A stretch of DNA of 64,000 nt, taken from the NCBI GenBank assembly GCA_003244105.1, contig QHBK01000007.1:55723-119722 (forward strand), written 5' to 3'. Of this stretch, positions 54,723-63,456 are shown in pieces. A program made the position numbers and the translations under genes. The notes beneath the pieces were generated by a model. It ran no database searches and had not been told where the DNA came from. It worked only from the letters and a program-made list of their open reading frames with translations. This DNA comes from Candidatus Eremiobacter antarcticus (GTDB lineage Bacteria; Vulcanimicrobiota; Vulcanimicrobiia; Eremiobacterales; Eremiobacteraceae). How positions within the stretch are numbered: position 1 is the stretch's first letter; the number at the start of each line of letters is the position of its first letter.

Positions 54723-55589
54723 TCAGCTCGCCCCTTCCTCTGGAATGACTTGAGCGCGGGCTAGCGCCGCTACTAACGCGACGCCACCTACCACGTTGCC
54801 GAGGAGAACGGGCGCGAAGAAATCGCTGAAATATTTCAGCCACGTCAGATCTCCGGCGCTGATGAGATAAAAGGCCTCCACTGACCCTACGATGACATGG
54901 GCGAGGCCCGCGATGCCGACGAGGTAGGTGAGGACGACGATGACCGCCGCTTGCGCCGACTCGGCCGCGGGCAGCAGCCACACCATGAGCGCAATCAGCC
55001 AGCCCGCGAACACGCCCTTCCAGAAGATGACCCAAAATGTTCCCGCCATCGATTCGGTGCTCACCTGAGCGAACACGGCCTTTTGGCGTTCGTCGAATAT
55101 GCCGCTATGGCTGAGAGCGAAGGCGAACAACGAAGCGCCAGCAAGGTTAGTCGCCAGCACGACCGCCCATAGACGCGCGACACGAAACAACGTAGCGCTA
55201 TCTTTGTTGTACAGTAGCGGTAAAATCGGCGTCAGCGTGTTCTCCGTGAACAACTGCTGGCGTCCCATCACGACGATGAGAAAGCCGACAGTGTACCCGA
55301 GATTTGCGATGAGCGGTCGCCAGGGCTCGTCCGGCAGGTGCGCGCGGAGCACGCCGACCGCCATGAGCGAGAAACCCATGGAAAGGCCTGCGGCCAAACC
55401 CGACCAAGCCAGCGATGCAACTGGCCGCTTGAGTTCGCCCTCGCCTTCGGCGCGGATGGTCTCGTGGACCACGGCTGTGCGCGGCCGCGCCCGCTCTTCG
55501 ACCTGGTCGCGTTCTCGATCGGTAAGAGGGATCTCGCTCGGAACTTCGTCCAGCGGCTTACCTTTTCGCGGGATTTTCGCATCCGCCAT
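54723..55589 (-). CDS. FNT-family (formate/nitrite transporter-like) channel
   Basis: A 288-residue integral membrane protein with six hydrophobic segments and an acidic N-terminal tail. The sequence GLAHVIVGSVEAFYLIS holds the conserved pore His, and SMGFSLMAVGVLRAHLP and NVVGGVALVAALA fit YfdC-type FNT proteins. The family conducts formate, nitrite, hydrosulfide or similar small anions. The long soluble tail (about 55 residues) is characteristic of YfdC. Start ATG is preceded by GGAAG. Confidence 0.8.
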   Translation of the reverse strand: MADAKIPRKGKPLDEVPSEIPLTDRERDQVEERARPRTAVVHETIRAEGEGELKRPVASLAWSGLAAGLSMGFSLMAVGVLRAHLPDEPWRPLIANLGYTVGFLIVVMGRQQLFTENTLTPILPLLYNKDSATLFRVARLWAVVLATNLAGASLFAFALSHSGIFDERQKAVFAQVSTESMAGTFWVIFWKGVFAGWLIALMVWLLPAAESAQAAVIVVLTYLVGIAGLAHVIVGSVEAFYLISAGDLTWLKYFSDFFAPVLLGNVVGGVALVAALARAQVIPEEGAS

Positions 55590-57008: not shown

Positions 57009-57887
57009 CTAGGAGCCGCTCTGGCCGTTGAAGATGCGGCTCTTGAGAATATCTTCCGCTTCGATCGTCATCAGCTGGGCGCGGCTCGGGCGCTCGCCGG
57101 TCGCGCATAAGCGGCTGGCTTGGCGCAAGCGCATGCGGTCGATGGCATTGCGAACGCTGCGCGCGTTGGCGAACTGCGGCTGGCGCATGCGGCGCTCGAG
57201 ATAGTCGGCGAACGCGAGCCGCGCTGCTGGAGAGAAGTCGTACATGAGCCGGCCGAGCATGAGGTCGGCGATCGCGATCAGCTGCTCTGCGCTGTAATCC
57301 GGGAAATCGATGTGGTGTGCGATGCGCGACTTCATGCCGGGATTGCTGCGGAAAAACTGTTCCATCTTGTCTTTGTAGCCCGCCAGGATGACGACGAGGT
57401 CGTCGCGCTGGTTCTCCATCGCCTGCAGCAAGATCTCAATGGCTTCTTGGCCGTAGTCGCGCTCGTTCTCGGGCCGGTACAGATAGTACGCCTCGTCGAT
57501 GAACAAGACGCCCCCGACAGCGCGTTTGAGGATCTCCTTGGTCTTGGGGGCGGTGTGGCCGATGTACTGACCGACGAGATCGTCTCGCGTCACTGTGACA
57601 AGATGCCCCTTGCGGCTGTACCCCAGGCGGCGCAGTATCTCGGCCATGCGCAGCGCGACCGTCGTCTTGCCGGTGCCGGGATTGCCGGCGAAGGACATGT
57701 GCAGCGTGGGGTTTTCGGCGGTGAGATCTTCGGCTTTGCGCAGTTTGTCGATGATGAGCAGCGAGGCGATGTCCCTGATGCGCGTCTTGACCGGCTCCAG
57801 ACCGATCAGCTCGGTGTCGAGGCGCTCTAAGACCTCCTGAACGCCGGCATCCACCGGCTCCGATGCGGGCGCAGGTGAAAGGCTCAC
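57009..57887 (-). CDS. cbbX: Red-type RuBisCO activase CbbX
   Basis: A 292-residue AAA+ ATPase. Walker A is GNPGTGKT (68-75), Walker B is VLFIDE (127-132), the pore loop region is QYIGHT, and the C-terminus has the small helical domain. CbbX remodels inhibited red-type RuBisCO to release sugar phosphates. Its GTG overlaps the stop of rbcS (GTGA), with AAGGAACA as ribosome binding site inside the rbcS end. Its presence is the best marker that the RuBisCO here is red-type. Confidence 0.92.
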
Positions 57888-58333
57888 TGTTCCTTGCTGC
57901 CGTTCACCGGGAAGTCTTCGTAGCGGTGGCCGGTCGGTTTGTCGGCGGCGTAGGCGTGCAGCGTGTACCTGATGCGCCGGTCTGAAGACTCCTGACGCTC
58001 CACCCGGAAGCCGGGTTCGTGCGCGGGCCGGTTCACGATGAAGCTGAGCGCTGTGGTCTGACGGCCTTTGCTGCGGTCGTAGGCGTTCAGTTTGACGTAT
58101 TGTTGCGGGTGCGCCCTGCGGCAGCGGTTGACTTCCGCCAGCACGGCCGTCACGTCCGTGACGTCAAACATGGGAAGCGCCCACATCTCCCAGTAGACGT
58201 TGCGGGGATGCGGGTCGTCCGTGTGCTCGATCGAGATCGACCACTCGTGGTCGAGGGCGTAGCGCACTTGCGCCGCGATCTCTTCGTCGCTGAGCGCGGG
58301 CAGATAGGAGAACGTGCCTTGCGTGAGGTGCAT
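57884..58333 (-). CDS. cbbS: RuBisCO small subunit
   Basis: A 149-residue small subunit starting [20 protein letters not shown], typical of red-type (C/D) chains, with the [19 protein letters not shown] and [20 protein letters not shown] regions. The C-terminal extension of about 25 residues ([19 protein letters not shown]) is also a red-type mark. AAGGATAG precedes the ATG, 11 bp after the large subunit. Confidence 0.9.
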
Positions 58334-58344
58334 CAGATCTATCC

Positions 58345-59853
<1,509 letters not shown>

Positions 59854-62034
59854 TTAGGTGGCGGCCGCGACGTTGGTGGACGTCGCCCGCAGGATGATGG
59901 ATTTTTGCGCGCTCAAGATGCGATGGGCGAGAATCAGCTGCGTTAGCGCGAGCGGATCGCTGTGGCGGCGGCTGCGGGCCGCTTCGTAGTTGCCAAGCAT
60001 GGCCGGGCCCACGTAGTGCAGCGTGCCGTGCCGTCCGTCGATGTGCGCCCAGATGTTGTCCTCGACCATGGTCGCCTCGGCCGGTTCGATGTTGCCGTCG
60101 ATTTCGATCACGTCGGAGCGCTGCCCATCTGCGTCGTCGACGTCGAGCGAAAGGCGCACGGCGCGCGCGCGCAGCAGCTGTCTGTCGAAATTGAGTCTCG
60201 TGAGCGTGTGCCGCTGGATGATGCGCACGTTGAGATGGCCCATGTCTTGCGAATCGGGCTGCGCGCGGTAGAACTGCACGACCAAGTCGGCGTGGCGTCG
60301 CTGCGGTTTTATGTAGAGCTCGGCATCGGGCCGGCGCGCCTCGAGTTCGGCGACCACTTGCTCGCGCGTGTAGCCGCGCTTGGCGACGTCGCGCTGCACT
60401 TTCCACCTCTCGCGCAGCCCGGCTTCGGGATCCAGCCACACCTTGAGATCGAAGGCATGGCGGATGCCGGGCACGAGAAACGGGTGCAGCCCCTGCATGA
60501 TCACGACCTCGCGCGGCTGCAATCGTTCCGGTCCCTCAAGCGTGCCGTTGTGATGGTTGTAGATCGGCTTATCGATCGGGTTGCCGCGTTTCAGCGACCA
60601 GATCTGCTCCTCCATGAGCGCGAAGTTGTTGGCTCTCGGATTGAGCGCGGTCAGGCCGACCAAGCCGCGCTGGCGGCGGTCCAGCGAATGATAGTCATCG
60701 AGGCAGACGCCCGCGATGCGGCCGTCGCCGAACAGGGCGAAGAAGGCGCTCGTGAGCGTGCTCTTGCCGGTTCCGCTGTCGCCGCCGATGCCGACGAAGA
60801 TGGGCACCGCTGCTGATCCATCCGTCAGGACTCCGTTCGACACCGCTGCGGCCGCCCGTCGACTCGCGGCCGGCGTAGGCTCGGTTGATTTGGCAACCTT
60901 CGATGCGCTCAACTTGCGCGCGAGTTCCGACAGCAGCTGAGCGAACGAATCGGCGAAGAGCTTGACGCCGTCGGACTCGAGTTGCGCGGCGACGCCTTCC
61001 ATGTCGATGCCGGCGCCGGCGAGCGCGGCCAGCTGCGCTTTGGTCTCGTCAGGATTGCGCACGAGCGGCTCGCCGCGCACCCGGCCGTGGTCGATGAAAG
61101 CCTTCACCGTTTCGAGCGGCATGGTGTTGACCGTGTGGCGGCCGATGAGTTCTTCCACGTAGCGAACGTCGCCGTAGTTCGGATTTTTCGTGCTCGTCGA
61201 CGCCCACAGCAAGCGCTGCGGTCGCGCTCCCAGCGCCGACAAGCTCAGCATCGTCTCGCCTTCGATGAACTTCCGCCAGACGATGTAGGCTGCGCGCGCG
61301 TTCGCGATTGCGGCTGTGCCCAACAAGCGCGTCAGTGACTCGCGCTGCGTGGCCTCGTTCGGGCCGGTCAGCTTGGCCTGCAGCTGCTGGTCGACGAGCG
61401 TGTCGACGCGGCTGACGAAAAAGCTTGCCACCGATGCGATCTTCCTGAGCTCGAGCCCGTTCTTGTGCGCGGCGGTCAGGCCACGGGCATGCGCTTCCAG
61501 TAACTCCCGGTATCGCTGCAGCCCGAAGACGAGGGTGGCGTTGACGCTGATCCCCTGGCCGAGCAGCGCGGTTATAGCGCTCAACCCCTCTTGGGTCGCG
61601 GGTATCTTGATCATGAGATTCTGGCGGCTCACGGCTGCGTGCAGGCGGCGCGCTTCTACGACAGATGCGTCGGCATCGTAGGCGAGATCCGGCGATACCT
61701 CGAGGCTGACGTAGCCATCGACGCCCTCGCTTGACTCGAACACCGGACGCAGCGCGTCTGCCACCGCCTGCACGTCGCTTGTGGCGACCTCTTCGTAGAT
61801 CTCTTTCACGTTGTGGCCGCGGCGCGCCGAATGCCTGATCTGCAGGTCGTACCGGCTGCCTTGCGCCAGCGCTTTTTGGAAGATGGTCGGGTTGGACGTG
61901 AGCCCGGTGATGCCGTCCACTTCGATCAGCCGCTTGAGCTCGCCGGAATCAATCATGTCACGGCTCAGCTGGTCGCACCAGGGGCTTTGACCGAGCTCGC
62001 GCAGCAAGGACAGGGCGTTTGCGGGCATCAGCAT
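59854..62034 (-). CDS. Transaldolase-phosphoribulokinase fusion protein
   Basis: A 726-residue protein. Residues 1-375 are a complete transaldolase: GITGLTSNPTIFQKAL, the Schiff-base Lys143 in LMIKIPATQEG, and NATLVFGLQRY. After a disordered Ala/Ser linker (about 377-407) comes a full phosphoribulokinase domain: P-loop GDSGTGKST (418-426), catalytic DDYHS (446-450), then YNHHNGTLEGPE and QGLHPFLVPGIR, ending in a regulatory tail to residue 726. It would make RuBP from ribulose-5-phosphate and also exchange a dihydroxyacetone unit between fructose-6- and sedoheptulose-7-phosphate. AGGAGA precedes the ATG at 62034. Confidence 0.9.
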   Translation of the reverse strand: MLMPANALSLLRELGQSPWCDQLSRDMIDSGELKRLIEVDGITGLTSNPTIFQKALAQGSRYDLQIRHSARRGHNVKEIYEEVATSDVQAVADALRPVFESSEGVDGYVSLEVSPDLAYDADASVVEARRLHAAVSRQNLMIKIPATQEGLSAITALLGQGISVNATLVFGLQRYRELLEAHARGLTAAHKNGLELRKIASVASFFVSRVDTLVDQQLQAKLTGPNEATQRESLTRLLGTAAIANARAAYIVWRKFIEGETMLSLSALGARPQRLLWASTSTKNPNYGDVRYVEELIGRHTVNTMPLETVKAFIDHGRVRGEPLVRNPDETKAQLAALAGAGIDMEGVAAQLESDGVKLFADSFAQLLSELARKLSASKVAKSTEPTPAASRRAAAAVSNGVLTDGSAAVPIFVGIGGDSGTGKSTLTSAFFALFGDGRIAGVCLDDYHSLDRRQRGLVGLTALNPRANNFALMEEQIWSLKRGNPIDKPIYNHHNGTLEGPERLQPREVVIMQGLHPFLVPGIRHAFDLKVWLDPEAGLRERWKVQRDVAKRGYTREQVVAELEARRPDAELYIKPQRRHADLVVQFYRAQPDSQDMGHLNVRIIQRHTLTRLNFDRQLLRARAVRLSLDVDDADGQRSDVIEIDGNIEPAEATMVEDNIWAHIDGRHGTLHYVGPAMLGNYEAARSRRHSDPLALTQLILAHRILSAQKSIILRATSTNVAAAT

Positions 62035-62097
62035 TGGAGACGTCTCCTGAGGACGATGGGCAGGAGTGCCGGCAGGGGAAAGGGTTGCTCGACCTCC

Positions 62098-62126
62098 AGC
62101 ATAAAGCGCGCTAATCATGACGTCAA
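62098..62126 (-). promoter_or_regulatory. Promoter of the cbb operon
   Basis: On the minus strand TTGACG (62121-62126) and TATGCT (62098-62103) are separated by exactly 17 nt. A transcription start near 62091 would give a leader of about 57 nt before the tal-prk ATG. The adjacent upstream half-sites suit activation by CbbR. Confidence 0.65.
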
Positions 62127-62137
62127 ATGCAAGTATA

Positions 62138-62164
62138 TTATGATTGCCATAAACTTTCCTTATG
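62138..62164. promoter_or_regulatory. Candidate CbbR operator: three half-sites
   Basis: TTATG (62138-62142), CATAA (62148-62152) and TTATG (62160-62164) form two overlapping inverted repeats with spacers of 5 and 7 nt. They lie between the cbb promoter and the cbbR start. The TNA-rich half-sites fit LysR-type activator binding. Confidence 0.65.
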
Positions 62165-62179
62165 GCAGCGGAGGTCTGG

Positions 62180-63130
62180 ATGATCGGCTCTCGCCTGGAG
62201 CGCCGCATGACGCTCCATCAATTGCGCATCTTCAAAAGCACGGTGGATCAGTCGAGCTTCACGCGCGCGGCCGCGGCTTTATCGCTGAGCCAGCCTGCGG
62301 TGACGCACCAACTGCAGGCACTGTCGCGGTCTCTCGGCCACGCGCTCTTCCAGACTCAGCCGGGCCGAGCGAAACTTGCGTTAACGCCGGTGGGCCAGGC
62401 GCTGTACGAACGCGCCAGCCGAATGCTCGCGCTGGTTCAGGAAACCGACGACGTCATCGGCGAGATCGTCGGATTGCAGACCGGTTCCGTTCGGGTGGCA
62501 GGCGACACGACAGTGGGGATCTACGTCGTGCCTGATGCGCTGTCGGCGTTTCACCGGGCGCATCCTCACATCAAGTTGCGCTTGGATGTCGTCAACCGCA
62601 ACCGCGTGCGCGAACTGCTGCAGACGGGCGAGGCGGACCTTGGCATCTTGGGCCGGCTTTGGAAGGATGACGTGTTTTGCGCCGAGCCGTTGATACAGAA
62701 CGACTTGATGTGGTTCTCGGCGCCGGATCATCCGCTCGTCAAGCGAGAGCCTCTACGTCTGAAGGATCTGGTCAATGGTCCGCTGCTCATGCGCGAGCCG
62801 GGTTCGGGAACGCGCGAAGCGGCCGAGACGATTTTTCGAAAGCACGGGATCGAACCGGTGCCGGACATGGAGATGGCCAGCAACGGCGCGCTGAAGCGGG
62901 CCGCCGCCGGCGGACTGGGCGTCGCGATGTTCTCCACCTGCGCAGTCAGACTGGAACTGGGGGCCGGTTTACTGCGACCGTTGCGCGTGCGGGGCTTCCC
63001 GCTGCGGCGCATGTGGCACACCGTCTGGATGCGCGACCGGTTGTTGAGCCCTGCCGCGAGCGCCTTCCGCGACCTCTTGCGCTCGCCAAGCTGGCGAGAT
63101 CAGCTGCCCAACCCGCTGGGCAGCGACTGA
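62180..63130 (+). CDS. cbbR: LysR-family regulator CbbR
   Basis: A 316-residue LysR protein with N-terminal wHTH (LHQLRIFKSTVDQSSFTRAA, LSQPAVTHQLQALS) and substrate-binding domain (GDTTVGIYVVPDALSAFH, REPGSGTREAAETIFRKHG). Divergent from the cbb operon, as CbbR genes usually are. The ATG at 62180 has GGAGG 5 nt upstream; an ATG at 62204 is also possible. It should sense metabolites such as NADPH or RuBP and activate tal-prk-cbbLSX. Confidence 0.9.
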   Translation: MIGSRLERRMTLHQLRIFKSTVDQSSFTRAAAALSLSQPAVTHQLQALSRSLGHALFQTQPGRAKLALTPVGQALYERASRMLALVQETDDVIGEIVGLQTGSVRVAGDTTVGIYVVPDALSAFHRAHPHIKLRLDVVNRNRVRELLQTGEADLGILGRLWKDDVFCAEPLIQNDLMWFSAPDHPLVKREPLRLKDLVNGPLLMREPGSGTREAAETIFRKHGIEPVPDMEMASNGALKRAAAGGLGVAMFSTCAVRLELGAGLLRPLRVRGFPLRRMWHTVWMRDRLLSPAASAFRDLLRSPSWRDQLPNPLGSD

Positions 63131-63135
63131 GGAGG

Positions 63136-63456
63136 TTAGAGCTTCTCTTCAGCCTCTTCACCCTTCTTGCCGAGCGCCACGATGTCGTCGGTCTTGAAGA
63201 GCACCGCTTGCAGCACGGCTTTCCATTTGGGTTTCGCACGCGCTAAAAATTCCAAAGCCATCGCGAAATGCTTGAACTCTTCTTCTTGCGCGTCGGCCAT
63301 GATGGCCTTGGCGCCCTTGTCCGGCTCCACGGACATGCGCTGCTCGTACCAGCTGATGGCTTGCGCCTCTTCGGCGAGTGACGCTGACATGCGCGCAAAG
63401 GTACGCGTTTGCGAGCTCAGCTCCGAGGCGGGCTCATGATACTGCTCAAATCCCAC
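63136..63456 (-). CDS. Encapsulated-ferritin-like protein (EncFtn)
   Basis: A 106-residue two-helix ferritin-like protein. Ferroxidase ligands align with the EncFtn pattern: Glu30 and Trp36 in LAEEAQAISWYEQR, and Glu60 and His63 in QEEEFKHFAM. EncFtn forms decamers and oxidises Fe(II) inside encapsulin shells. The C-terminus (GKKGEEAEEKL) has no obvious encapsulin targeting peptide, and no encapsulin gene is in the window. GTG start with AAGGAG. It converges with cbbR, 5 bp apart. Confidence 0.82.
   Translation of the reverse strand: MGFEQYHEPASELSSQTRTFARMSASLAEEAQAISWYEQRMSVEPDKGAKAIMADAQEEEFKHFAMALEFLARAKPKWKAVLQAVLFKTDDIVALGKKGEEAEEKL

Follow-up and report, generated by a model that had tools for sequence, protein, structure and literature searches.

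A transaldolase-phosphoribulokinase fusion at the head of a form I red-type RuBisCO operon in Vulcanimicrobiota, and its probable place in a Calvin cycle

A transaldolase variant of the Calvin cycle that avoids sedoheptulose-1,7-bisphosphatase (SBPase) reportedly operates in Thermodesulfobium with a form III RuBisCO. To our knowledge, an SBPase-free Calvin cycle has been characterized in a single organism and is elsewhere deduced from gene absence. The S7P-forming variant depends on FBP aldolase and FBPase and dispenses with SBP aldolase and SBPase; per GAP the FBP aldolase and FBPase act twice, transaldolase once, and phosphoribulokinase (PRK) three times (PMC8927339). A transaldolase variant was proposed in 2026 for Ktedonobacteria with a form I RuBisCO designated 'IG' (PMC13374853). 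Vulcanimicrobium alpinus has a RuBisCO described as type IE, and a 13CO2 test was done by its authors. Transaldolase is also known as a fusion partner of phosphoglucose isomerase (Tal-PGI), and nearly every Vulcanimicrobiota genome has a Tal-PGI frame of about 950 aa.

The locus compared here with these systems lies in the window, by which we mean the whole stretch of 64,000 nucleotides analyzed, from Candidatus Eremiobacter antarcticus (the source genome, G000), a member of the Vulcanimicrobiota (formerly Eremiobacterota/WPS-2). The original prediction, silent on strand, was that one unbroken frame encodes a complete transaldolase and a complete PRK at the head of a RuBisCO operon. Translation of 59854-62034 on the plus strand is interrupted by stops, and the coding strand is the minus strand. 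There the longest open frame is 59854..62208, and an SD-like CAGGAGA upstream of an ATG start region sets the gene start at 62034, for a protein of 726 aa. Pfam matches on this frame, to TAL_FSA (PF00923, 265.9 bits) and PRK (147.3 bits), are each nearly full length, and with the NCBIfam matches they bear out both the unbroken frame and the completeness of its two enzymes. The transaldolase half reaches 472 bits with PRK03343 (NF002881; cut-off 367) and 340 bits with TIGR00876 (cut-off 234), and the kinase half 326 bits with PRK07429 (NF005655; cut-off 236); NCBIfam uridine kinase models score far below cut-off on the PRK half. Codon-position GC shows the reading frame to be maintained through the linker. 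The fusion is the sole PF00485 match in the source genome. Its position at the operon head is likewise upheld, with cbbL, cbbS, and cbbX following in that order on the same strand and a cbbR-type regulator gene divergent from it (Table 1).

Table 1. Window coordinates of the fusion gene, its domains, and the genes and site around it.
Feature	Coordinates	Strand	Basis and remarks
Transaldolase-phosphoribulokinase fusion gene	59854..62034	minus	one open frame; Pfam and NCBIfam matches to both families; 726 aa
Transaldolase domain, residues 1-383, TIGR00876-type	60886..62034	minus	alignment with 3clm; Foldseek TM 0.96 to 3clm
Linker, residues 384-408, predicted disordered	60811..60885	minus	pLDDT < 50 at 384-388 and 390-408
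Phosphoribulokinase domain, residues 409-726	59857..60810	minus	PRK07429 326 bits; cyanobacterial PRKs 9qko/9qkp are the best phmmer and Foldseek matches
cbbL, form I red-type RuBisCO large subunit, 484 aa	58345..59799	minus	PF00016, PF02788
cbbS, RuBisCO small subunit	57884..58333	minus	PF00101; start inferred inside ORF 57884-58441
cbbX, red-type RuBisCO activase	57009..57887	minus	TIGR02880 493 bits, cut-off 459
LysR regulator, CbbR type, divergent	62162..63130 (likely start 62207)	plus	HTH_1, LysR_substrate
Promoter-like site TTGACG-17-TATGCT, between cbbR and fusion	62098..62126	minus	consensus scan only

An AlphaFold2 model built from a 30-row alignment (mean pLDDT 86.4) contains two confident domains, and pLDDT falls below 50 only at the two termini and at 384-408. 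The linker, predicted at about 30 disordered residues, thus corresponds to a low-confidence stretch of about 25. With a pTM of 0.59, the model makes no prediction of how the two domains are placed relative to each other. Normalized by target, Foldseek TM-scores are 0.96 for the transaldolase half against the Neisseria gonorrhoeae transaldolase 3clm and 0.92 for the PRK half against the cyanobacterial PRK 9qko. Alignment with 3clm shows that catalytic D21, N48, E112, and K143 are all kept, K143 being the residue predicted to form the Schiff base. Neisseria transaldolase has a Lys-Cys NOS redox switch; as a candidate feature of the fusion it was rejected, the aligned positions being Arg and Thr. 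In the kinase half the P-loop, predicted at 418-426, is found as GGDSGTGKST at 417-426, followed by CLDDYHSLDR at 444-453, PRANNF at 466, and KPIYNH at 489. By family score and motifs, the kinase half is a predicted class II-type phosphoribulokinase. Its P-loop has Thr at the site of the cyanobacterial enzyme's Cys; thioredoxin-type redox control is therefore not expected, while membership in the kinase family is unaffected. What speaks against a bifunctional enzyme is that the fusion has Gln (Q514, window 60493-60495) in place of the EGLHP Glu; in Rhodobacter PRK, mutagenesis reportedly showed a Glu of this region to be important for activity. However, the position is Gln in every closely related unfused PRK aligned and His in the V. 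alpinus homolog, so the Gln is not specific to the fusion.

A homologous fusion, 70% identical over its full length, is encoded in another genus of the family (G015, record CADDZI010000074.1). It might be argued that a frameshift, an assembly error, or chimeric binning united two separate genes, the source genome being a draft of 19 contigs and the Dormibacteria relatives described below carrying two separate genes. This explanation is extremely improbable, because the other genus was assembled independently and its copy has a linker of different length in a frame that stays open. The old prk start, moreover, shows no obvious ribosome site and start in either fused copy. Chance or frameshift is excluded for practical purposes, and the fusion is genuine. 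Between the two copies, the fractions of differences at codon positions 1, 2, and 3 are 0.25, 0.17, and 0.52 in the transaldolase part and 0.17, 0.14, and 0.43 in the PRK part, a third-position bias that indicates purifying selection on both domains. The corresponding values in the linker are 0.54, 0.54, and 0.42, indicating none there, and residues 371-408 share 31% identity with the second fusion, with 12 gapped residues. These figures bear on the idea that the transaldolase half, catalytically idle or secondary, serves PRK as a structural or regulatory module, or that two coupled genes became fused by neutral accident. In its favor, small junction changes suffice to fuse overlapping genes, the linker is unconserved, and the genome has another transaldolase. 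We nevertheless judge the idea improbable, since every catalytic transaldolase residue checked is kept, the transaldolase domain is under purifying selection in both copies, and the fusion has persisted since the two genera split.

The presence of a large subunit, a small subunit, and a CbbX activase identifies the RuBisCO, by homology, as form I red-type, and the best PDB matches of CbbL include the red-type enzymes 1bwv, 1bxn, and 5nv3. CbbL is 77% identical to that of V. alpinus, which suggests that the source enzyme belongs to sub-form IE. The best NCBIfam model for the regulator is CbbR, at 183 bits and under that model's cut-off; its divergent position is conserved in relatives with the same operon. 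Adjoining the regulator gene is a small ORF of the EncFtn-like (encapsulated ferritin) type (window 63136-63456, PF22277), and no shell protein gene was identified beyond it in the stretch read. Downstream of cbbX, on the same strand, is a formate/nitrite transporter family gene (54723-55589), with an opposing ORF between the two.

A RuBisCO large-subunit N-domain match was found in 13 of 149 Vulcanimicrobiota genomes, and the fusion only in G000 and G015, both of them soil-type bacteria. The stretches read at the RuBisCO clusters of G055, G056, G093, G095, G106, G117, G118, G123, and G059 have no tal, and several of these clusters have a canonical class I aldolase, FBPase I, or GlpX adjoining RuBisCO. 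Outside the phylum, a PRK ortholog is present in nine genomes of the Dormibacteria (110 genomes, both of Candidatus Dormiibacter included). In G149 and G150 (Ca. Dormiibacter) and in G186, tal directly precedes prk as a separate gene, stop and start overlapping (ATGA in Ca. Dormiibacter, TGATG in G186). A continuous tblastn match had hinted at a fusion in Dormibacteria, but the ORFs show tal and prk to be separate. The arrangement cbbR, then prk-cbbL without tal, is seen in G595, G561, G568, G564, and G567, and G300 has the order prk-cbbL-cbbS. The contig scan was pattern-based and missed G186, and our statement of rarity applies to the two phyla; on plasmids, no match covered 80% of the query.

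In FastTree trees, whose branch supports are approximate, the two fused copies group together and all operon transaldolases fall into a single clade that excludes the Tal-PGI of the source genome (L117:7753-12717, contig 3, adjoining a transketolase gene). This separation rules out a domain swap with the resident Tal-PGI as the source of the transaldolase half. The simplest reading of the operon series suggests that tal was acquired, then coupled, and then fused. The direction from gain through overlap to fusion remains inferential, because the PRK and CbbL trees differ in how they resolve the two fusions and the Dormibacteria with tal. Two further features of the Dormibacteria operons were seen. 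In Ca. Dormiibacter spiritus (L003:3863-6352) a single frame of 829 aa spans prk and cbbL, whereas Ca. D. inghamiae (L004) has the two as distinct genes that overlap; the difference at the junction is small, and the long frame reflects a sequencing error or else another fusion. In G186 the interval between cbbR and tal (L121:8794-10418) holds pieces resembling transketolase, spread over several frames and apparently broken, as if a transketolase had once belonged to the operon; their state led us to reject a transketolase as a working member of that operon.

We consider it probable, from the domains and gene neighborhoods described, that the fusion is a single bifunctional Calvin-cycle enzyme, with transaldolase and PRK on a flexible linker, that serves an S7P-forming, SBPase-free cycle and was fused from coupled genes. 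The protein would be made together with the form I red-type RuBisCO, with the divergent CbbR-type regulator in control. Its transaldolase half would run in the S7P-forming direction, converting F6P and E4P to S7P and GAP; transketolase would carry S7P toward Ru5P, and the kinase half would convert Ru5P to RuBP. Neither SBP aldolase nor SBPase would be needed along this route. The gene probably arose when coupled tal and prk, overlapping as they do in Dormibacteria, lost the tal stop. The main benefit is likely to be fixed co-production and not direct channeling, which is unlikely given the transketolase and pentose-phosphate isomerase/epimerase steps that separate the two fused reactions. The 1:1 expression first proposed does not amount to a matching of fluxes, since the steps are not consecutive and the variant has one Tal turnover to three of PRK (PMC8927339).

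The gene content of the source genome bears on this role. G000 has matches to TK, Rpe, PGK, GAPDH, and TIM and a PFK-like match, together with one GlpX bisphosphatase (a possible SBPase; C19:155888-156799) and one DhnA-type class I aldolase (C6:315320-316045), which scores below its model cut-offs, so that this identity is likely, not certain. No class II FBA (PF01116), canonical class I FBA (PF00274), or class I FBPase (PF00316) was found in G000, G015, G149, or G150, four genomes with an operon transaldolase, although gene absence in draft genomes, G000 itself being a draft 95.8% complete, is weak evidence. The canonical class I aldolase is found in 5/5 relatives that have a canonical cbb operon, with no tal there. 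RuBisCO-less members of the family likewise lack these aldolases and FBPase I, a gap that is thus lineage background and no pathway signature; an operon transaldolase would complement this aldolase-poor background. The proposed transaldolase variant, with its expected lack of SBPase and aldolase genes, is therefore supported in part: the three enzymes are missing, but GlpX, which occurs in the fusion genomes, and the DhnA-type aldolase remain and could do either step. To call the route hard-wired claims too much, given these two enzymes, a background shared with RuBisCO-less relatives, and a second transaldolase already supplied by Tal-PGI.

The same two enzymes allow for a bifunctional fusion in an essentially canonical cycle, in which GlpX would act as a dual FBPase/SBPase, the DhnA-type aldolase would make SBP, and transaldolase would merely balance sugar phosphates in either direction. 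GlpX enzymes can be bifunctional in this way, the cyanobacterial FBP/SBPase hydrolyzes both substrates about equally (PMC8927339), and the otherwise similar tal-less operons of Dormibacteria show that tal is not strictly needed with such a RuBisCO. On balance we think a canonical cycle unlikely: GlpX is common to RuBisCO-less family members and hence looks gluconeogenic, canonical relatives have a dedicated aldolase that often adjoins RuBisCO, and a second transaldolase inside the operon needs a reason. Returning to the S7P-forming cycle, we would extend it only tentatively, at somewhat less than even confidence. The fusion may be the regeneration enzyme of an obligate cycle of this kind, with form I red-type RuBisCO, in trace-gas-oxidizing soil bacteria, tal having joined a minimal prk-cbbLSX operon, become coupled, and been fused after spread between Dormibacteria and Vulcanimicrobiota. 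The best solved relative of the [NiFe]-hydrogenase of G000 is the HofG protein of 5aa5 (1087 bits), a hydrogenase that we take to be of group 1h; a group 1h-like enzyme is in keeping with autotrophy on H2, and such a hydrogenase was not found in G015. Trace-gas autotrophy has been reported for relatives (PMC9561532).

A transaldolase encoded in a RuBisCO operon and covalently tied to the RuBP-making enzyme, in an aldolase-poor background, makes the hypothesis of an SBPase-free cycle testable on one recombinant protein. Operons without tal, with tal beside prk, and with the two joined in one gene can be read as stages through which a Calvin-cycle variant may have been put together, and for synthetic CO2 fixation the fusion offers a ready-made part.

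Each of the closest described systems shares some features with this locus. The bifunctional Tal-PGI (NF007080) likewise has an N-terminal transaldolase of the same broad subfamily fused to a sugar-phosphate enzyme, but its partner is PGI and not PRK, it lies outside the RuBisCO operon, and in the source genome its transaldolase is about 44% identical to the operon transaldolase. In Ca. Dormiibacter and G186 the unfused tal-prk-cbbLSX operon matches the source in gene order and divergent cbbR-type regulator, with tal 58-61% and prk 67-71% identical to the fusion halves, the two being overlapping genes and not one. The type IE cbb cluster of V. alpinus WC8-2 (G118) comes from the same class, and its cbbX adjoins cbbLS; unlike the source, it has a separate PRK, about 45% identical, and no tal, and its genome has a canonical class I aldolase. 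In Methylacidiphilum fumariolicum SolV the consecutive genes Mfum_70005-70010 encode transaldolase, cbbL, cbbS, cbxX, PRK, and transketolase, but the transaldolase is annotated mipB, the genes are separate, and their order differs; FBPase class 1 and fbaA are likewise annotated there (PMC3404531). For Ktedonobacteria, as for the source, bypass of SBPase by transaldolase has been proposed with a form I enzyme and red-type activase, whereas no fusion is reported and tal is not among the listed rbc cluster genes (PMC13374853). A transaldolase variant with form I RuBisCO is consequently not a new idea. Tal-PGI fusions, the form III variant, and a transaldolase beside cbbLS in Methylacidiphilum are also known already. 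A transaldolase fused to PRK had been thought not previously known, and we found no report of one in the open-access papers to which the search was confined. What is apparently new and undescribed is the protein architecture, joining known reactions within a type of pathway proposed before.
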